Positions 22,180 through 31,561 of a stretch of DNA of 64,000 bases are shown piece after piece. The DNA is from Mesorhizobium sp. 65-26 (GTDB lineage Bacteria > Pseudomonadota > Alphaproteobacteria > Rhizobiales > Rhizobiaceae): NCBI GenBank assembly GCA_001899205.1, contig MKVL01000009.1, forward strand, positions 1-64,000, given 5' to 3'. Below the pieces are notes generated by a model. That model did not search any database and had not been told where the DNA came from. It saw nothing but the letters and a program-made list of their open reading frames with translations. Made by a program: the position numbers and the translations under genes. The stretch's first letter is position 1, and every line of letters begins with the position of its first letter.

Positions 22180-22637
22180 ACCGCAACCGACTGCTGAACG
22201 CCGAACTCGCTCACGCCATTGCCTCCATGGGGCACGGCGATTTGATGATCATCTGCGACGCGGGTTTTCCCATTCCGTCGAGCGCATGGCGCATCGACCT
22301 CGCCATCACGCCGGACGTTCCCGATCTGGAGACCGTGCTGACGCCGATTGCGGCCAACCTGATCGCCGAACGCGTCGCCTACGCCGACACGCTGCCGGTG
22401 CACAACGCGCCGCTGCTGGAGAAGGTGAAGCGCCTGTTCCCGGACGCCGACCATGAAACCGTCAAGCACGAGACCATTCTGGGCGAGATGGCGGCCAAGG
22501 CCAAGGTGATCGTGCGCACCGGCGCCTTCGACCCCTGGGGCAACATCCTGCTCTATTCCGGCGTCGACGTTCCGGCGTGGTTCTCCAAGCCCGGCGTCGT
22601 CGCGCCCGACTACTACGCCAAGAAGCTCAAGGGCTGA
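22176..22637 (+). CDS. rbsD: RbsD/FucU-family sugar mutarotase, C-terminally extended
   Basis: RbsD converts ribopyranose forms to those used by ribokinase. GTG 22176 is the start: GGAAGGAG sits five bases upstream, and it overlaps the kinase stop by 4 bases. The 153-residue protein has the catalytic His region (IASMGHGDLMIICDAGFPIP). The usual YxN near the C-terminus reads WGN (DPWGNILLYSG), and about 20 residues (DVPAWFSKPGVVAPD and onward) extend past the normal end. The substrate may therefore differ from ribose. Confidence 0.86.
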   Translation: MNRNRLLNAELAHAIASMGHGDLMIICDAGFPIPSSAWRIDLAITPDVPDLETVLTPIAANLIAERVAYADTLPVHNAPLLEKVKRLFPDADHETVKHETILGEMAAKAKVIVRTGAFDPWGNILLYSGVDVPAWFSKPGVVAPDYYAKKLKG

Positions 22638-22639
22638 GC

Positions 22640-23470
22640 GTGCCGAGGATCTTCGATTTCGGCGGCCGCGAGGTTGAGCGAAGCATCACCGTCGCCGGTC
22701 TGCGCGCCTTGCGGCAGGCCGGGCAGCGTGTCGCCCAGGTCACGGCCGAAACGGCTGACGAGGCGTCGGCCGCCGAAGCCGCCGGCGTCGAGATGGTGGT
22801 CTGCCGGGCCGCCAACGTCGCCCGCGTCCGCGAGGGATCGCGCCGCGTCTTCGTGACGGCCGCGCTCGGCTTCGCCGACGCGGTGACCGGCGACGAGGTC
22901 CTGCGCACCGCTTTTTCGGCAATTATGTCTGGCGCGGACGCGGTCATCACCGGACGCGGCTTCGATACGGTTCGCATGCTGGCCAATGAACGGATACCGG
23001 TCATGGGCCATCTCGGTTTCGTGCCGCGCAAATCGACCTGGGTCGGGAGCATCCGGGCCGTCGGCAAGACGACGGCCGAGGCGGTCGAGCTCTGGGACCA
23101 GTTCCGGCGGCTGGAGGATGCCGGCGCCTTCGCGGTCGAGTGCGAGATCATACCGGCTGATCTGATGGCGGAAATCCACCGCCGCACCGCGCTGGTCACG
23201 GTGTCGCTCGGCTCGGGCGCCGAGGCGGACGTCATCTTCCTGTTCACGTCGGACATCTGCGGCGAGTCGGCCCGCCTCCCCCGCCACGCGCGGGCCTGGG
23301 GCAATCTGGCTGCCCTGCACAAGCAGGTGCGTGATGCCCGGACCGACGCGCTCTCCGCGTTCCGCGGGGAAGTCGACGGCGGCAGCTATCCCGGCAAAGC
23401 CGAGACGTCGGCCATAGCGGAGGAAGAGCTGGAAAGGTTCCGGGCCTTCCTGGATTCGTCGAAGCAGTGA
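22640..23470 (+). CDS. PanB-like (ketopantoate hydroxymethyltransferase fold) protein
   Basis: A 276-residue TIM-barrel protein from GTG 22640, 2 bases after rbsD. The PanB-like core is clear: IPVMGHLGF (residues 119-127) and an EC motif with Glu167 at the place of the PanB catalytic Glu. However, the GDS motif that carries a metal Asp in true PanB is replaced by CRAAN (residues 55-59). It is therefore probably not making ketopantoate. As the last gene of the ribose-type operon it may cleave or form a carbon-carbon bond in a sugar-derived acid. Confidence 0.75.
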   Translation: MPRIFDFGGREVERSITVAGLRALRQAGQRVAQVTAETADEASAAEAAGVEMVVCRAANVARVREGSRRVFVTAALGFADAVTGDEVLRTAFSAIMSGADAVITGRGFDTVRMLANERIPVMGHLGFVPRKSTWVGSIRAVGKTTAEAVELWDQFRRLEDAGAFAVECEIIPADLMAEIHRRTALVTVSLGSGAEADVIFLFTSDICGESARLPRHARAWGNLAALHKQVRDARTDALSAFRGEVDGGSYPGKAETSAIAEEELERFRAFLDSSKQ

Positions 23471-23522: not shown

Positions 23523-23557
23523 TTGACTGGACGATCGCAGGCACTAGGCTAAGCAGA
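23523..23557 (+). promoter_or_regulatory. Candidate promoter of the amide operon
   Basis: TTGACT (23523-23528) and TAGGCT (23545-23550) are 16 bases apart, a plausible housekeeping-sigma promoter. The predicted start near 23557 lies just before two small hairpins and an attenuator-like structure. Confidence 0.45.
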
Positions 23558-23561
23558 AATA

Positions 23562-23640
23562 CCGGCCTCGTTCGCCGGACGGCAAGAATGCCTCGTATGC
23601 CACGCCCACCCGGCGGCGGCTGCGGGGCATTGTCATTTTT
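23562..23640 (+). promoter_or_regulatory. Attenuator leader before amiC, candidate ANTAR (AmiR) target
   Basis: Two short hairpins stand side by side: CCGGC/GCCGG (23562-23578, loop of 7) and GGCA/TGCC (23581-23592, loop AGAA). A larger hairpin then pairs AATGCCTCG (23587-23595) with CGGGGCATT (23623-23631), with further pairing inside, followed by TGTCATTTTT. The second small hairpin shares bases with the 5' arm of the terminator-like hairpin, so they exclude each other, as in ANTAR antitermination. The loops do not match the usual hexaloop consensus exactly. Confidence 0.5.
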
Positions 23641-23650
23641 GGGGCTTTGT

Positions 23651-24745
23651 TTGAAACGGCGCGTCGAAGTCGGCATCCTCTATTCCCGCTCGGGGAGCTA
23701 TCAGCTCGTCTCCGACGCATGCCGGACAGGCGCGATGCGCGCGATCGCCGACGTCAATGCCGATCGCGCGCATCCGATCGAGATCGTGCCGATCGAGCGC
23801 GACCCGCAAAGCAATGCCGATCGCTACGCGACGCTTTGCGAAGACATCTTCCGGACCAGCAGCGCGCGCCATGTGGTCGGCTGCGTCACCTCCTGGAGCC
23901 GCAAGGAGACGATCCCCGTCCTGGAAAAGGCCGGCGGCATGCTCTGGTATGCCTGCCCCTACGAGGGCTTCGAGGCCAACGAGCATGTCGTCTACATGCA
24001 CGCCTGCCCCAACCAGCATCTCGTGCCCCTGATGGCCCATGTCGTGCCGCGTTTCGGCGCCAACGGCTTCCTGCTGGGCTCGAACTACATCTGGGGCTGG
24101 GAAATGAACCGCGTGGCGCGCGACCTGATCGCCGACGCCGGCGGCAAGGTGCTCGGCGAGCGCTATCTGCGCATCGGCGAGACCGACGTGTCGCGCCTGA
24201 TCGAGGAAATCCGCGCCACGCGCCCGAACTTCATCCTCAACAATCTGATCGGCACCTCCTCCTACGCCTTCCTGGCCGCATACAAGGAACTGGGCCGCGA
24301 GGATCCGGGCTTCAGCCCGGAGAGCTGCCCGGTCATCTCCTGCAACCTCACGGAGGGTGAGCTCCCGGCGATCGGCGAGACCGGCCGGGGCCATCTGTCC
24401 GTCGGCCCCTACTTCGCGCCGCGACCGGCCGCCTTCGCCTCGTCCTTCGAGGCATCCGCCTACGCCTCCGTGCAGGTGATGGCCGACGTGCTTTCGCGTG
24501 ATCCCGACGCCGACCTCGCCACGTTTTCGCGGGCGTTCGCCGAACGCCGCTTCTCGACCCGCCTCGGCCCGATCGCCATCGATCCGCATTCGCAGCACGC
24601 GACGCTGCCCGTCATCATCGGGCGTATCGCCGACGGCATGTTCGAGGTGGTCAGCCGCGAGGAAGAAGTCGCGCCGGATCCGTATCTGTCGCGCTACGAC
24701 CCCGCAAAGACGTTCGGCCGGCCGCGCCTGAGGGTGGTCTCGTGA
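23651..24745 (+). CDS. amiC: AmiC-type amide-sensing regulator (periplasmic-binding-protein fold)
   Basis: A cytoplasmic amide sensor that in Pseudomonas holds AmiR inactive until an amide binds. The Peripla_BP fold is seen in VEVGILYSRSGSYQ at the N-terminus, VGCVTSWSRKETIPVLE and LNNLIGTSSYAF. No signal peptide is present, as expected. I place the start at TTG 23651 (364 residues) because GGGG (23641-23644) is well spaced and the start then falls after the attenuator. ATG 23588 in the same frame would lie inside the terminator stem. The stop overlaps amiR by 4 bases. Confidence 0.82.
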   Translation: MKRRVEVGILYSRSGSYQLVSDACRTGAMRAIADVNADRAHPIEIVPIERDPQSNADRYATLCEDIFRTSSARHVVGCVTSWSRKETIPVLEKAGGMLWYACPYEGFEANEHVVYMHACPNQHLVPLMAHVVPRFGANGFLLGSNYIWGWEMNRVARDLIADAGGKVLGERYLRIGETDVSRLIEEIRATRPNFILNNLIGTSSYAFLAAYKELGREDPGFSPESCPVISCNLTEGELPAIGETGRGHLSVGPYFAPRPAAFASSFEASAYASVQVMADVLSRDPDADLATFSRAFAERRFSTRLGPIAIDPHSQHATLPVIIGRIADGMFEVVSREEEVAPDPYLSRYDPAKTFGRPRLRVVS

Positions 24746-25344
24746 GCCGGGCCTCGCGCATTCCCAATCTAGGCGGCGCCAAGGCGTTCGTGCTGCATCG
24801 TCCGCACCCGACCGTGCAGGCGATGACCCGGCAATTGTCGGCGATCGGCCTCGACACGGTGGATTGCTGGCCGGAATTGCCGGCGGAAGCGCTCGCCGCC
24901 GACTTCGTCTTCTTCGACGCCGATCTGGGCTTCGACGAGCAGTTTCCGTGGAAGCCCGGCGAGGCGCCGATGCCTCTTGTGGCGCTGATCGGCTCCGAGG
25001 CGCCCGGCCGCATCGAATGGGCGCTGTCGCACAAGGCCGACGCGCAACTGCTGAAGCCGGTCGGCAATGCCGGCGTCTACAGCGCCCTGCTGATCGCAAG
25101 GCAGAGCTTCGAGGCCCGTAAGCACCTCGCCGCCGAGATCGCCTCCCTGCGCCAGCGCGTGGCCGAGCGCCAGACCATCGTGCGCGCGGTCGAGGCCCTG
25201 TCGAAGGGCGCGGGCGAAGGACGCGCCTACGGACAACTGCGTTCGCTGGCGATGAGCTGGCAGATCAGCGTCGAGGAAGCGGCGCGGCGCATCGTGGCAA
25301 TGACGGACGAAGAAGGCGGCAATGACCACTCCCATAGCGCCTGA
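24742..25344 (+). CDS. amiR: AmiR-type antiterminator with C-terminal ANTAR domain
   Basis: A 200-residue RNA-binding regulator from GTG 24742. The N-terminal part is a degenerate receiver-like domain (FVFFDADLGFDEQ). It continues into a coiled coil (AAEIASLRQRVAERQ) and the ANTAR three-helix domain, with AYGQLRSLAMSWQ and VEEAARRIV. AmiR binds tandem hairpins in nascent RNA to prevent termination. It is co-transcribed with its sensor amiC and overlaps the next permease gene by 23 bases. Confidence 0.86.
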   Translation: MSRASRIPNLGGAKAFVLHRPHPTVQAMTRQLSAIGLDTVDCWPELPAEALAADFVFFDADLGFDEQFPWKPGEAPMPLVALIGSEAPGRIEWALSHKADAQLLKPVGNAGVYSALLIARQSFEARKHLAAEIASLRQRVAERQTIVRAVEALSKGAGEGRAYGQLRSLAMSWQISVEEAARRIVAMTDEEGGNDHSHSA

Positions 25345-26230
25345 TCTTTCGACCGGGGCTCGGGTGGTCGCCAAGCCGCGCCCCGGCGTGTGGAAGCGGC
25401 TGCTCAAGCGCCCGCTGGCGGTTGCCGGCCTGGTGATCATCGCCATCGTCGTCATCGGCGCGATTCTCGCGCCCTGGCTGACCGGCTATGATCCGAACGA
25501 GCAGATGTTCGACGGGCTGACGATCGAGGGATCGCCGCTGCCGCCGAACGCCAAGTTCTGGCTGGGCACCGACCTGCTCGGGCGTGATCTTCTGACCCGC
25601 ATTCTCTACGGCGCGCGCACGTCGCTGATCATCGGCATCGTCGCAAATGGCGTCGCGCTCCTGATCGGCACGCTGGTCGGCGTCACGGCCGGCCACTTCC
25701 GCGGCTGGGTCGGCAGCGTGCTGATGCGCTTCACCGACCTGATGATGGCCTTCCCGGCGCTGCTTCTGGCCATCTGCCTGGCGGCGGTGTTCCAGCCCAG
25801 CCTGTGGATCGTCGCCATGGTCATCGCGCTGGTCAACTGGGTGCAGACGGCGCGCGTCATCTTCACCGAGACAAGCTCGCTGTCCGAGCGCGAGTTCATC
25901 GCCGCCGAGCGCACGATCGGCGCCGGCGCTCCAAGGATCCTGTTCCGCCACATACTGCCGCATCTCGTGCCGACGATCATCGTCTGGGGCACGCTCGGCA
26001 TCTCGACCACGGTGCTGCTGGAGGCGACGCTCAGCTATCTCGGCATTGGCGTGCAGCCGCCGACGGCCTCGTGGGGTAACATCATCTTCGAGAACCAGAC
26101 CTATTTCCAGGCCGCGCCCTGGCTGGTGTTCTTCCCCGGCGCGGCGATCCTGGCGCTCGCCCTGGCGTTCAACCTGATCGGTGATGCGCTGCGCGACATC
26201 CTCGACCCGACGCAGAGAGGGCGGGAATGA
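25322..26230 (+). CDS. Peptide/nickel-type ABC transporter permease (DppC family)
   Basis: A 302-residue permease with an N-terminal cytoplasmic leader, about six spans, the WLGTDLLGRDLLTR motif typical of DppC and OppC, and the EAA loop ERTIGAGAPRILFRHILPH. It begins inside the end of amiR, showing tight coupling with the regulators. With the AmiC/AmiR control and the formamidase downstream, the imported compound is probably an amide or amide-containing small molecule. Confidence 0.91.
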   Translation: MTTPIAPDLSTGARVVAKPRPGVWKRLLKRPLAVAGLVIIAIVVIGAILAPWLTGYDPNEQMFDGLTIEGSPLPPNAKFWLGTDLLGRDLLTRILYGARTSLIIGIVANGVALLIGTLVGVTAGHFRGWVGSVLMRFTDLMMAFPALLLAICLAAVFQPSLWIVAMVIALVNWVQTARVIFTETSSLSEREFIAAERTIGAGAPRILFRHILPHLVPTIIVWGTLGISTTVLLEATLSYLGIGVQPPTASWGNIIFENQTYFQAAPWLVFFPGAAILALALAFNLIGDALRDILDPTQRGRE

Positions 26231-27147
26231 TCACCTATCTTGGCCGTCGCATCATCCAGTCGGCGCTCATCCTGCTTGGCGTCTCGCTGATCACCTTCGC
26301 GCTGCTTTACCTGCTGCCGGCCGATCCGGTCCGCCAGATCGCCGGGCGCAGCGCAACACCGGAGACGGTTGAGAACATCCGCCGGCAGCTCGGCCTCGAC
26401 CAGCCGTTCGTCATCCAGTACTGGCGTTACCTGGGCGGCCTGATCAACGGCGATCTCGGCCGTTCCTACATCCAGCGCTCGCAGGTGACGGAGCTCATCG
26501 TCTCGCGTCTACCGGCGAGCCTGCTGCTGATGGTCGGCGCGATCGTCTGCGAACTCGCCATCGGCCTGACGATGGGGCTGATCGCCGCCGTCAAGCGCGG
26601 CACGCCCACCGACCAGACGCTGATGGTCGCCTCCTTCGTCGGCGTGTCGGCGCCGCAATTCGTTGTCGGCCTGCTGCTGCTCTACGTCTTCGCCGTGCGC
26701 CTGGGCTGGTTCCCGATCGGCGGCTACGGCACATGGCGGCATCTCGTGCTGCCCTCGCTGACCATGGGTATCCTCGGCGCCGGCTGGTACGCGCGCATGA
26801 TGCGCTCGTCGATGATCGACGTGCTGCGCCAGGACTACATGCGCACCGCCCGCGCCAAGGGTCTGGCGCGCGCCGCCATCATCTTCCGCCATGCGCTGCC
26901 CAACGCCATCCTGCCCGTGATCGCCATGATCGGCATCGATGTCGGCATCTTCATGGGCGGCATCGTGGTGGTCGAAAGCGTGTTCGGCTGGCCGGGCATC
27001 GGGCAACTGGCCTGGCAGGCGATCCAGCGCGTCGACATCCCGATCATCATGGGCGTCACGCTGGTCTCGGCCTGCGCCATCGTGCTGGGCAACCTGCTCG
27101 CCGACATTGTGGCCCCGTTCATCGACCCCCGCATCAAGCTCAGATGA
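26227..27147 (+). CDS. Peptide/nickel-type ABC transporter permease (DppB family)
   Basis: A 306-residue permease. It starts MITYLGRRIIQSALILLGVS, with LLPADPVRQIAGRSATPE in the first periplasmic loop, the EAA loop RTARAKGLARAAIIFRHALPN, and the C-terminal DIVAPFIDPRIKLR. Its ATG overlaps the DppC-type stop (ATGA). The order permease C before B, with the binding protein third, is unusual compared with the classical dpp order. Confidence 0.92.
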   Translation: MITYLGRRIIQSALILLGVSLITFALLYLLPADPVRQIAGRSATPETVENIRRQLGLDQPFVIQYWRYLGGLINGDLGRSYIQRSQVTELIVSRLPASLLLMVGAIVCELAIGLTMGLIAAVKRGTPTDQTLMVASFVGVSAPQFVVGLLLLYVFAVRLGWFPIGGYGTWRHLVLPSLTMGILGAGWYARMMRSSMIDVLRQDYMRTARAKGLARAAIIFRHALPNAILPVIAMIGIDVGIFMGGIVVVESVFGWPGIGQLAWQAIQRVDIPIIMGVTLVSACAIVLGNLLADIVAPFIDPRIKLR

Positions 27148-27181
27148 GAATGAAAGAACAACCAGAGAAAGGGAACAACCA

Positions 27182-28825
27182 ATGAAACGATTCCTGGTAT
27201 CCACCGTGGCGGCGTCGGCGCTGGCGCTGATGCTCGGCATGAGCAGCGCGCGCGCCGAGAGCGCCGTCGACCCCAACATCAAGCAGGGCGGCGACATCAT
27301 CATCACCTACAAGGACGACGTCGCGACGCTCGATCCCGCCATCGGCTACGACTGGCAGAACTGGTCGATGATCAAGAGCCTGTTCGACGGGCTGATGGAC
27401 TACGAGCCGGGCACCACCAACCTGACGCCCGATCTCGCCGAAAGCTACGATATCTCGCCGGACGGCAAGACCTTCACCTTCAAACTGCGCCACGGCGTGA
27501 AGTTCCACAATGGCCGGGAGATGACGGCCGACGACGTCAAGTATTCGCTCGACCGCGTCACCAACCCAAAGACCCAGAGCCCCGGCGCCGGCTTCTTCGC
27601 CTCGATCAAGGGCTATGACGACATGGCCGCCGGCAAGGCCGAGGGTCTCTCCGGCGTCACCGTCGTCGATCCCTACACAGTCAAGTTCGAGCTGACCCGT
27701 CCGGACGCCACCTTCCTGCACGTGATGGCCATCAATTTCAGCCACGTCGTGCCGAAGGAAGAGGTCGAGAAGTACGGCGCCGACTTCGGCAAGCATCCGG
27801 TCGGCACCGGTGCCTTCAAGCTCGCGGAATGGACGCTCGGCCAGCGCATCGTCTTCGAGCGCAACGCCGACTACTGGCACAAGGGCCTGCCGCATCTCGA
27901 CAAGATCACCTTCGAGATCGGCCAGGAGCCGATCGTGGCGCTGCTGCGCCTGCAGAAAGGCGAGATCGACGTGCCCGGCGACGGCATCCCTCCGGCCAAG
28001 TTCCAGGAGGTGATGGCTGACCCCGAGCAGAAGGCGCGCGTCGTCGAAGGCGGCCAGTTGCACACCGGCTACGTCACCATGAACACCACGATGGCGCCCT
28101 TCGACAACGTCAAGGTGCGGCAGGCGGTCAACATGGCCATCAACAAGGCGCGCATCGTCCAGATCATCAACAACCGCGCGGTGCCGGCCAACCAGCCGCT
28201 GCCGCCGTCGATGCCCGGCTACGACAAGGACTTCAAGGGCTACGCCTACGATGTCGCCAAGGCCAAGGCGCTGCTCGCCGAGGCCGGCCACCCCGACGGC
28301 TTCGAGACGCAGCTCTTCGTCATGAACACCGACCCCAATCCGCGCATCGCGCAGGCGATCCAGCAGGACCTCGCGGCCATCGGCATCAAGGCCAGCCTCC
28401 AGTCACTGGCGCAGGCCAATGTGATCGCGGCCGGCGGCGACAAGGCCGGCGCGCCGATGATCTGGTCGGGCGGCATGGCCTGGATCGCCGACTTCCCGGA
28501 TCCGTCCAACTTCTACGGGCCGATCCTCGGCTGCGCCGGTGCCGTGCCCGGTGGCTGGAACTGGTCGTGGTACTGCAACAAGGACCTCGACGCGAAGGCA
28601 GCCGAGGCCGACTCGATGGTCGATCCGGCCAAATCGGCGGATCGCGAGAAGATGTGGAGCGCGATCTACGACAAGATCATGGAAGACGCCCCCTGGGCGC
28701 CCGTCTTCAATGAACAGCGCTTCACGATGAAGTCCGCGCGCATGGGCGGCGCCGACAACCTCTATGTCGACCCGGTCCATATCCCGATCAACTACGACAA
28801 TGTGTATGTGAAAGATGTGCAGTAA
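27182..28825 (+). CDS. Family 5 periplasmic solute-binding protein
   Basis: A 547-residue SBP_bac_5 protein with a signal peptide (MKRFLVSTVAASALALMLG, cleaved after ARA near residue 26). Family segments include DVATLDPAIGYDWQN, GKTFTFKLRHGVKFHNG and VRQAVNMAINKARIV. ATG 27182 follows an AGAGAAAGGGA site, and the open frame upstream is ignored because it covers the permease. The C-terminus has three Cys near ILGCAG and WYCNK. The ligand is probably an amide or peptide-like compound. Confidence 0.92.
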   Translation: MKRFLVSTVAASALALMLGMSSARAESAVDPNIKQGGDIIITYKDDVATLDPAIGYDWQNWSMIKSLFDGLMDYEPGTTNLTPDLAESYDISPDGKTFTFKLRHGVKFHNGREMTADDVKYSLDRVTNPKTQSPGAGFFASIKGYDDMAAGKAEGLSGVTVVDPYTVKFELTRPDATFLHVMAINFSHVVPKEEVEKYGADFGKHPVGTGAFKLAEWTLGQRIVFERNADYWHKGLPHLDKITFEIGQEPIVALLRLQKGEIDVPGDGIPPAKFQEVMADPEQKARVVEGGQLHTGYVTMNTTMAPFDNVKVRQAVNMAINKARIVQIINNRAVPANQPLPPSMPGYDKDFKGYAYDVAKAKALLAEAGHPDGFETQLFVMNTDPNPRIAQAIQQDLAAIGIKASLQSLAQANVIAAGGDKAGAPMIWSGGMAWIADFPDPSNFYGPILGCAGAVPGGWNWSWYCNKDLDAKAAEADSMVDPAKSADREKMWSAIYDKIMEDAPWAPVFNEQRFTMKSARMGGADNLYVDPVHIPINYDNVYVKDVQ

Positions 28826-29759
28826 CTGCGACTACACCATCCACGGACGCCACCACCACTTCGGCTGGGACAACTCGTTTGTCCCGGCCCAGCGGGTGGC
28901 GCCCGGCTCGACGATCGAGTTCCAGTGCCTGGATTCCTCGGGAGGGCAGCTCAAGTCCGACAGCACCGTCGGCGACATCGCGGCCCTCGACTTCGGCCAG
29001 ATCAACCCGGTGACCGGGCCGATCTTCGTCGAGGGCGCCGAGCCCGGCGACGCGCTCAAGGTGACGATCGAGGCCTTCAAACCGTCCGGCTTCGGCTGGA
29101 CGGCGAACATTCCGGGTTTCGGCCTGCTCGCCGACGACTTCAAGGAGCCGGCGCTGAACATCTGGAAGTACGACGCCACCTCGCTCGAGCCGGCGCTGTT
29201 CGGCAAGAACGGCCGTGTTCCGCTGAAGCCCTTCGCCGGCACCATCGGTAACGCGCCCGCCGAGAAAGGCCTTCACTCCGTCGTGCCGCCCCGGCGCGTC
29301 GGCGGCAACCTGGATATCCGTGACCTTGCTGCCGGCACCACGCTCTACCTGCCCGTGGAGGTCGCGGGAGCCCTGTTCTCCGTCGGCGACACCCATGCGG
29401 CGCAAGGCGACGGCGAAGTGTGCGGAACCGCCATCGAAAGCCCGATGGACGTCGTGCTCAAGCTCGACCTGGTGAAGGACGCGCGGCTGAAGATGCCGCG
29501 CTTCACCACGCCAGGCCCGGTGACGCGCCATCTCGACGCCAAGGGCTACGAGGTGACGACCGGCATCGGTCCGGACCTGATGACGGGCGCCAGGGAAGCA
29601 GTCGCGCAGATGGTCGACCTGTTGGCCGCCAGCCACAAGCTCGATCCGGTCGAGGCCTATATGCTTGCCTCGGTGTGCGGCGACCTCAGGATCAGTGAGA
29701 TCGTCGACATGCCCAACTGGGTGGTGTCGTTCTACTTCCCTCGCTGCGTCTTCGAATGA
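28815..29759 (+). CDS. Acetamidase/formamidase (FmdA/AmdA) family protein
   Basis: A 314-residue metal-dependent amidase that releases ammonia from short amides. It begins MCSNCDYTIHGRHHHFGWDNS, typical of this subgroup, with the His cluster near the start, and contains GDALKVTIEAF, PFAGTIGNAPAE and GDTHAAQGDGEV (ligand region). ATG 28815 overlaps the binding-protein gene by 11 bases. It fits as the enzyme that uses the imported amide, with nitrogen supply as the likely purpose. Confidence 0.92.
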   Translation: MCSNCDYTIHGRHHHFGWDNSFVPAQRVAPGSTIEFQCLDSSGGQLKSDSTVGDIAALDFGQINPVTGPIFVEGAEPGDALKVTIEAFKPSGFGWTANIPGFGLLADDFKEPALNIWKYDATSLEPALFGKNGRVPLKPFAGTIGNAPAEKGLHSVVPPRRVGGNLDIRDLAAGTTLYLPVEVAGALFSVGDTHAAQGDGEVCGTAIESPMDVVLKLDLVKDARLKMPRFTTPGPVTRHLDAKGYEVTTGIGPDLMTGAREAVAQMVDLLAASHKLDPVEAYMLASVCGDLRISEIVDMPNWVVSFYFPRCVFE

Positions 29760-31561
29760 GCGCAAGCCTGGATAAAAGGCGCGAGGAGACCGCCGAAAAG
29801 ACGGGGCCGGTGCTCGACATCACCGGCCTCTCCATCGCCGTGCGCGGCGAGGACGGCGAACGCGAAGTCGTGTCGAACCTTTCGCTGACGCTCGGGCGTG
29901 GAGAGACGCTGTGCATCGCCGGCGAATCCGGCTCGGGCAAGTCGATGACCGCGCTGGCGATCATGCAGCTCCTGCCGAAGCCGGCGGCTCGCATCGCGGC
30001 GGGGACGATCAGGCTCCGCGACGCCGAGCGCAATGACGTCGATCTCACGACGCTCGACGAGCGGCGGATGCGACGTATCCGCGGCGACCGGATCGCCATG
30101 ATCTTCCAGGAGCCGATGACCTCGCTCAACCCCGTGCTGTCGATCGGCCGCCAGCTCACGGAATCGATCGAGGTGCATACCGGAGCCTCGCGCGCCGAGG
30201 CACGGCGGCGCGCCATCGAGGCGCTGAAGTCGGTTCGCATCTCCGAGGCCGAGAGCCGCCTCAAGCAGTTTCCGCACGAGCTTTCCGGCGGCATGCGCCA
30301 GCGTGTGATGATCGCCATGGCGCTGGCGCTCGAACCGGCCGTGCTGATCGCCGACGAGCCGACGACGGCGCTCGACGTCACGGTGCAGGGCGAAGTGCTG
30401 GAGCTTCTTCGCGACCTGCAGCGCGTGCACGGAACCAGCATCATCCTCATCACCCACGACATGGGCGTGGTGGCGGAGATGGCCGACAGGGTCATCGTCA
30501 TGCGCAACGGCCGCATGGTCGAGGAAGGCGCCACCGGGGACATTTTCGCGAAGCCGCAGGCCACGTACACGCAGGAACTGCTGTCGGCGGTGCCACGCAT
30601 CGGCGAAGGTCCGGGCCGGCGCCCGTCGCGTCGCGACGATGGCACTGCGAATGACCACGTCGCCGAAATCAACGATCTGAGCGTCCGTTTCGATCTGCGG
30701 GGCGGCCTGCTCGGCCGCGTCAACCGTCGCGTTCACGCGGTCGAGGGCGTGAGCTTCTCGATAGCACCGCACGAAACGCTGGCGCTTGTCGGCGAATCCG
30801 GATGCGGCAAGTCGACCACCGCGAAGGCGCTCGCCGGCCTCGTGCCCTATGAGGGCGCAATCAGGATCGGCGGCCGCAATCTGTCAGGGCTCGGCGGCGA
30901 CGAACGCAAGGCGGTGCGCCGCGACATCCAGATGGTCTTCCAGGACCCCTTCGCGTCGCTCGATCCGCGCATGCGCGTCGGCGAACTGGTGGCCGAACCT
31001 CTGCTGATCCATGGCATAGGCTCGAAACAGGAGCGTCGCGACCGTGTGGCGGCACTATTCGAGCGGGTCGGTCTCTCGGCAGATCAGATGGAGCTCTATC
31101 CGCACGAATTCTCCGGCGGCCAGCGCCAGCGCATCTGCATCGCCCGGGCACTCGCGCTCAGGCCGAAGCTGATCATTGCCGACGAGAGCGTCTCGGCGCT
31201 CGACGTTTCGGTACAGGCCCGCGTGCTCGACCTGTTGAAGGAACTCCAGAGCGAGTTCGGCGTCGCCTATCTCTTCATCTCGCATGACATGGCGGTGGTC
31301 GAGAACATATCCGACCGTGTCGCGGTGATGTATCTCGGCCAGATCGTCGAGATGGGGACGCGCGACCAGGTCTTCTCCAACCCGCGCCATCCCTACACGA
31401 AGCGCCTGATCGAGGCCGTTCCAGTACCCGACCCGACGCGCCGCCGCAGCCGCTTCGCTCGGCTCGACAAGGAGATCGCCAGCGCGACGCGAAAGGTCGG
31501 CGACGATCCGCAAAGGCTGACGTTGCGAGATGTTGGCGACGGCCATCTCGTGGCCGGATAA
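29756..31561 (+). CDS. Fused dual ABC ATPase (DppD-DppF type)
   Basis: A 601-residue protein that joins the two ATPases of a peptide-type transporter. Domain 1 has GESGSGKSM and LSGGMRQR. Domain 2 has [17 protein letters not shown] and the [12 protein letters not shown] Walker B. Both carry the extra oligopeptide-type C-terminal region ([12 protein letters not shown]). It overlaps the formamidase stop by 4 bases and closes the operon. The convergent patatin gene ends 20 bases later. Confidence 0.93.

Follow-up and report, generated by a model that had tools for sequence, protein, structure and literature searches.

A candidate AmiC-AmiR-controlled transcription attenuator with a divergent hairpin loop in front of a rhizobial transporter and amidase-family operon

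The closest described relatives of the leader examined here are those read by ANTAR antiterminators. The amiE leader of Pseudomonas aeruginosa, by its published description, carries an A at position 1 (A1) and a G at position 4 (G4) in the loops of both hairpins (PMC3369931, PMC3369936), and PMC8934654 describes EutV as stacking Tyr164 on G4 and contacting the RNA with Asn173, Arg175 and Arg177. For actinobacterial ANTAR RNAs, PMC8164766 reports both A1 and G4 in 'more than 50%', which amounts to an earlier proposal of looser loops. The leader described here lies in a 64,000-nt stretch of Mesorhizobium sp. 65-26 (contig MKVL01000009.1, positions 1 to 64,000; hereafter the window) and consists of two small hairpins, P1 and P2, and an intrinsic terminator. 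The locus is like P. aeruginosa AmiC-AmiR/amiE in its sensor-antiterminator pair, in a terminator overlapped by a small hairpin and in heading an amide operon, the amiE leader again being taken from its published description (PMC3369931, PMC3369936), but here P2 is without G4, the P1 loop has 7 nt and is without A1, and AmiC-AmiR heads an operon for an Opp-type transporter and an amidase-family protein. With the EutV leaders of Enterococcus faecalis it has the P1-P2-terminator geometry in common, and the equivalents of Tyr164, Arg168 and Met172 are mostly kept in AmiR (numbering of PMC8934654), whereas P2 again has no G4 and AmiR continues after Met172 with a SWQIS-like stretch. Rhizobial NasT leaders (genomes G155, G271, G041 and G147) share the GGC/GCC P2 stem and the overlapping terminator, but have A1 and G4 in the loops of both hairpins (e.g. 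AAUGGC and AAAGCU), and NasT has an NQNRK-like stretch after Met172. In our literature search this AmiR leader of Alphaproteobacteria was not found described, though it may figure in the supplementary tables of PMC3369931.

The first two genes of the operon had been named amiC and amiR from the sequence alone, and matches to PDB entries 1pea and 1qo0 and to the Pfam AmiR_N and ANTAR families agree with this (Table 1). An AmiC-type sensor stands directly before a protein with AmiR_N and ANTAR domains, the latter barely above the Pfam cut-off (29.6 vs 27.3), and by eye no signal peptide is evident in AmiC. The sequence-only reading had amiC begin at ATG 23588; we correct this to TTG 23651, most likely the true start, as ATG, GTG or TTG is found at the equivalent place in 37 of 49 non-redundant relatives. 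It had also described a transporter and formamidase operon, of which the Opp/Dpp-type transporter genes stand, while the enzyme can be called to the acetamidase/formamidase family only, scoring 119.4 bits against a cut-off of 500 for the FmdA formamidase model (NCBIfam NF045496). The gene order of the window recurs in the operons of 17 of 20 relatives; L242-L244 have a different order and no amidase-family match. Among the matches listed, the AmiC of the nearest named loci is 89-93% identical to that of the window. The gene upstream (22577-23470) encodes a ketopantoate hydroxymethyltransferase-like protein (PF02548, E 1e-33) and, by eye, ends an apparent sugar ABC transporter and kinase cluster.

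Table 1. Positions of the leader elements and operon genes in the window
Feature	Position	Strand	Remarks
Likely promoter, -35 TTGACT (23523-23528), 16-nt spacer, -10 TAGGCT (23545-23550)	23523..23550	+	expected start ~23557
5' tail conserved among leaders, mostly A[AC]AUA, directly 5' of P1	23557..23561	+	alignments A1/A2
Hairpin P1, CCGGC-CUCGUUC-GCCGG, 5 bp, 7-nt loop	23562..23578	+	covariation in relatives
Hairpin P2 (proposed antiterminator), GGC-AAGAAU-GCC	23581..23592	+	GGC-N6-GCC kept in relatives
Intrinsic terminator (23588-23630) with T-rich tail to 23640; 5' arm overlaps P2	23588..23640	+	pairing in relatives
amiC, amide-sensor protein, TTG start	23651..24745	+	Peripla_BP_5 E 1.4e-85; PDB 1pea (AmiC) E 3e-39
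amiR, ANTAR RNA-binding antiterminator	24742..25344	+	AmiR_N E 5e-9, ANTAR E 5.9e-7 (Pfam); PDB 1qo0 (AmiR) E 1e-5
Two Opp/Dpp-type permeases, SBP_bac_5 family-5 binding protein, acetamidase/formamidase-family enzyme, double ATPase	25322..31561	+	Pfam

The leader (23557-23640) lies between the gene ending at 23470 and amiC, and the small hairpins before a stable T-tailed hairpin that had been proposed there were found in place. Its terminator has 8 basal pairs, the arm folds at -27.4 kcal/mol and the T tail is interrupted (UUGUCAUUUUU). The six bases said to be common to P2 and the terminator arm reduce to five (23588-23592), with a sixth possible through A23587 and a U of the tail. The promoter suggested upstream is also plausible: 46 of 49 non-redundant relatives have TTGAC 30-90 nt 5' of P2 (the exceptions being L106, L107 and L108), 43 of those 46 at 54-61 nt, and TTGAC occurs in 4% of shuffled stretches, though a strict sigma-70/terminator consensus scan reported neither the leader promoter nor a plus-strand terminator, its sole match in the region being a minus-strand terminator-like site over P1. 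Folded on its own the leader is unremarkable (z -0.95; matched or bettered by 31 of 200 shuffles), and Rfam assigned it to no family at the curated threshold, with three chance-level matches (E 1.9-6.4), so the significance of the leader comes from comparison with relatives and not from single-sequence folding. A leader peptide was considered and rejected, as the P2-to-start distances of 49 relatives spread over all three frames (18, 17 and 14), indicating that the leader is not coding.

Relatives were drawn from two sets of amiC loci: the best 80 of 219 loci from a scan with one genome per species, and 30 taken, the window's own included, from the 48 amiC genes at E<=1e-100 in 297 Rhizobiaceae genomes. 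These sets overlap in species and together give 110 leaders, 49 of which remain below 90% identity; amiR is present in the fetched stretch at all 110 loci. A set of 86 leaders combines 49, 20 and 17 sequences, its 49 also belonging to the 110, and the 17 sister P2s (L248-L264) and the labels for presence or absence of P1 were set partly by eye. Alignment A2 holds 45 leaders, without L023 (end misplaced), L108, L110 and L111 (no P1) and the near-copies L016 and L020.

A P2 of the form GGC-N6-GCC and a matching terminator arm were found in 110 of 110 leaders (the arm of L023 by inspection), and the GGC arm of P2 is kept throughout even though the terminator makes no use of it. In A2, 96.7% of the cells of P1 and the terminator are paired (96.0% for P1, 97.2% for the terminator), against at most 54.6% when the partner is slid. 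Double-change cells number 37 against a shuffled mean of 12.6 and pairs changed on both sides number 5 against 2.5, neither being reached in 500 shuffles, with the caveat that related sequences can exceed shuffles without any structure; further pair types were not above shuffles (191/500). Thirteen of the double-change cells fall in P1, where three of five pairs have changes on both sides, and 24 in the terminator, 23 of them in one pair. Pair 23589-23629 is A-U in 14 leaders, U-A in 14, C-G in 7, G-C in 2 and unpaired in 8. The three pairs of the P2 stem are invariant in 45/45 leaders and hence show no compensatory changes. The search for compensatory changes in all three stems that had been suggested thus succeeds for P1 and the terminator, while P2 neither covaries nor fails. 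RNAalifold preferred, on alignment A1, to pair the CCG of P1 with a CGG around the P2 5' arm, an arrangement that relies on G-U pairs and was rejected because the P1 pairing has U-A in place of C-G in 8/45 leaders. A model (R2) built from 23 leaders that fall outside the genus to which the tool assigns the window recovered the window site at 63.2 bits (E 1.7e-20, on a short, rough calibration), with the next-best match at E 0.048. It could be argued that the site is a plain terminator of the upstream genes, with no regulatory role, since it lies between two genes and its single-sequence fold is not significant. However, it sits behind a position-conserved promoter, and an invariant P2 and a compensating P1 across genera would be needless for a simple terminator, making this explanation highly improbable.

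The element was then followed by its linkage to amiC-amiR. Model R1 gave 74 matches in 66/297 Rhizobiaceae genomes at E<=0.001, half of which (37/74) lie, by position, just upstream of amiC genes at E<=1e-100. Another 20 precede further amiC-amiR pairs, whose AmiC is 38-47% identical, 5 are followed by other genes or by a broken amiC, and 12 look like chance and were dropped (L199, L201, L203-L205, L207, L208, L210-L214). Overall 57/74 matches precede amiC, rising to 46/49 at E<=1e-6; 27 of the 74 are the sequences from which R1 was built, and without them the figure is 30/47. AmiR was checked beside 56 of these 57 (G296 excepted). Reading the leaders of the 11 amiC genes without an R1 match (L248-L258) revealed P2 and a terminator in each, which together with the 37 found by R1 places P2 and a terminator before 48/48 amiC genes of the 297 genomes. 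The window's own genome has one strong R1 match (the next at E 0.15), and a search of it for ANTAR proteins gave AmiR alone at E<=0.001 and two matches at 0.01. Over 385 genomes of the class, R1 had matches in 30, strong only in the window's genome (G000) and G336, and the others look like chance terminators. A phylum-wide search found AmiR in 33/398 genomes, and many of the distant ones among the 20 stretches read are without a clear element.

These data bear on whether the attenuator is instead read by some other factor (a metabolite, another protein or an RNA-binding regulator), with the ANTAR protein acting elsewhere. Such a reading would account for loops that mismatch the published ANTAR code and for the replacement of the RNA-contacting residues that follow Met172 in EutV (NQNRK-like in NasT, SWQIS-like here), but it does not sit well with an element that goes with amiC in the sampled Rhizobiaceae (48/48 genes and 46/49 strong matches), with an AmiR that stands alone among ANTAR matches in its genome at E<=0.001 (two matches at 0.01), with a geometry that is that of ANTAR attenuators, or with the lack of any Rfam match at threshold; we consider it improbable.

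Several loci outside the main pattern were noted along the way. In G166, a second copy of the element (L180, G166:C1:757802-757891, E 3.1e-10) precedes an operon that encodes an ABC transporter and includes a solute-binding protein, in a stretch without an amiC-amiR match, the genome's amiC-amiR being elsewhere; this element is likely a trans target. L179 (G272:C2) keeps the leader and the transporter and amidase-like genes, with amiC matching over 25 residues only and amiR unmatched in the stretch, and its regulatory pair is apparently broken. In L190, L197 and L209 (~380-600 after orientation), GGC-N6-GCC and a terminator lie upstream of an AmiC/UrtA-like binding protein 27-28% identical to AmiC, with loops AUCAGG, AAAGAG and GAUGAA and permease-like ORFs downstream in L190 and L197; these are possibly single-hairpin ANTAR leaders of another regulon. 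Outside the class, the amiC leader L301 (G949, ~2854) has a P2-like hairpin with canonical A1 and G4, GGC-AAUGAA-GCC, in contrast to the alphaproteobacterial loops.

The sequence-only reading had cautioned that the hexaloops might be divergent, which was right and goes further than supposed. Position 1 of the P2 loop is A in 84/86 leaders (exceptions L091 and L191) and in 109/110 of the larger set, and position 4 is never G (0/86 and 0/110), being A in 44, C in 44 and U in 22 of the 110 leaders. The 3' side of the terminator can pair with loop positions 5 and 6, and position 6 follows it. Among CCGGC-type P1 hairpins the loop has 7 nt in 30/35 non-redundant leaders, and the fourth place is G in 30/30 of those loops, so P1 retains the G that P2 is without. 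Set against the features of ANTAR-target leaders (Ramesh 2012), the window has two small hairpins (about 20/86 relatives being without a clear P1) and a P2 3' arm that overlaps the terminator through 23588-23592, with terminator pairs that compensate, but not the A1/G4 hexaloops in both hairpins. A descriptor with A1 and G4 in both loops matched 0/110 leaders, and a single A1/G4 hairpin occurs somewhere in the stretch in 9/110. The dual descriptor, combined with an overlapping terminator, was applied as a positive control to 12 NasT stretches from relatives and gave one match each in L216, L217, L218 and L227 and none in two shuffle rounds; in the other 8, the NasT leaders may lie elsewhere or outside the descriptor. 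The four genomes with a NasT match also carry an AmiR leader.

With labels set partly by eye, about 20 of the 86 leaders (L108, L110, L111, L194, L198, L200, L215, L248-L256, L259-L262) show no clear P1, and its absence is unsure in L200, L253-L256 and L262. Single P1 scores often fall within shuffles, a typical P1 scoring 0.015 and those of L019, L092, L106, L107, L184, L191, L202, L206 and L263 scoring 0.12-0.30. The TTGAC-to-P2 distance is 44-47 nt in L110, L111 and L248-L252, versus 54-61 nt in most leaders with P1, but the other P1-less leaders show no such shortening (52-55 nt in L253-L256 and L262, 68 nt in L215), and TTGAC is absent from the stretch in L108, L194, L198, L200 and L259-L261. 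On the AmiR tree, the labels for presence or absence of P1 require at least three changes. The P1-less loci L245-L247 have the same operon order as the window and an amidase-family protein that is 80% identical. In P1-less L194, an 8-bp hairpin upstream could capture the P2 5' arm (AUGCCAUU/AAUGGCAU, by eye) and so exclude P2, which may add another level of regulation in this one leader.

To compare the proteins, 10 NasT and 49 AmiR sequences were aligned, with EutV positions mapped by spacing and not by structure. At the Tyr164 equivalent 43 of the 49 AmiR have Y and the other 6 have F; at Arg168 all 49 have R, and at Met172 46 have M and 3 have T. Immediately after Met172, NasT has N in 10/10 and AmiR mostly S, followed by W in 47/49. 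NasT has K or R at position 143, where 44/49 AmiR have Q, and at position 149 K stands in 10/10 NasT and V in 48/49 AmiR. Most members of a second AmiC-AmiR group carry W, M, L or F at position 164. ERR after Met is kept in a sister group, so the change following Met172 does not track the loss of P1.

Taken with the loops, these residues raise the question of ordinary loop drift in an ANTAR dual-hairpin leader that AmiR recognises in the known way. The order and overlap of P1, P2 and terminator are the same, A1 of P2 is kept in 84/86 leaders and the fourth-place G in 30/30 of the 7-nt P1 loops, among 49 AmiR the Tyr164 equivalent is kept in 43 (with Phe in 6 more), that of Arg168 in 49 and that of Met172 in 46, and the actinobacterial RNAs, by the figure quoted from PMC8164766, have A1 and G4 in only 'more than 50%'. 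Against it stand a P2 without G4 in 86/86 leaders, the dual descriptor at 0/110 compared with 4/12 NasT stretches, and about 20/86 leaders without a clear P1, and we think this explanation unlikely, though it deserves to be kept in mind.

Given the conserved promoter position, P1, P2 and terminator, the linkage to amiC-amiR and the conserved operon, our preferred reading is that the leader probably attenuates transcription under the control of the AmiC-AmiR pair encoded behind it (probability roughly 0.85). AmiR binding, the class of ligand and the direction of control are modelled on P. aeruginosa AmiC-AmiR and E. faecalis EutV. By default, RNA polymerase would start near 23557 and stop at the terminator (23588-23640). 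AmiC, as a presumed sensor of amide- or urea-like compounds, would release AmiR on binding its ligand, and AmiR would then bind the P2 loop, plus P1 where present, and hold P2 closed. A closed P2 would take 23588-23592 from the terminator and allow transcription into amiC, amiR, the transporter genes and the amidase-family gene, so forming a positive loop.

Judged from the aligned leaders, the loop code appears to depart from the published one, in that P2 has A1 without G4 and P1 seems dispensable in some lineages. The exclusion of G4 from the P2 loop and the apparent single-hairpin forms in orthologous operons are what make the leader a new form among ANTAR antiterminators, one that may follow a loop code of its own and occur naturally with a single hairpin. 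More tentatively, and with the odds somewhat against so full a proposal, AmiR proteins of the Rhizobiales and Rhodobacterales may read a distinct code in which one hairpin with A-N-N-(not G)-N-N is essential and P1 is optional, gained or lost several times, with position 4, which would be G in NasT targets and any other base in AmiR targets, separating two ANTAR circuits within one cell. The finding bears on two ideas, that G4 is required in each loop and that both hairpins of the dual motif must be contacted (PMC8934654). Both are directly testable here, since P1 is present in some orthologous operons and missing from others, and since one genome can hold two ANTAR leaders with a common P2 stem but a different base at loop position 4. 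For rhizobia themselves, it points to a conserved and probably regulated operon.
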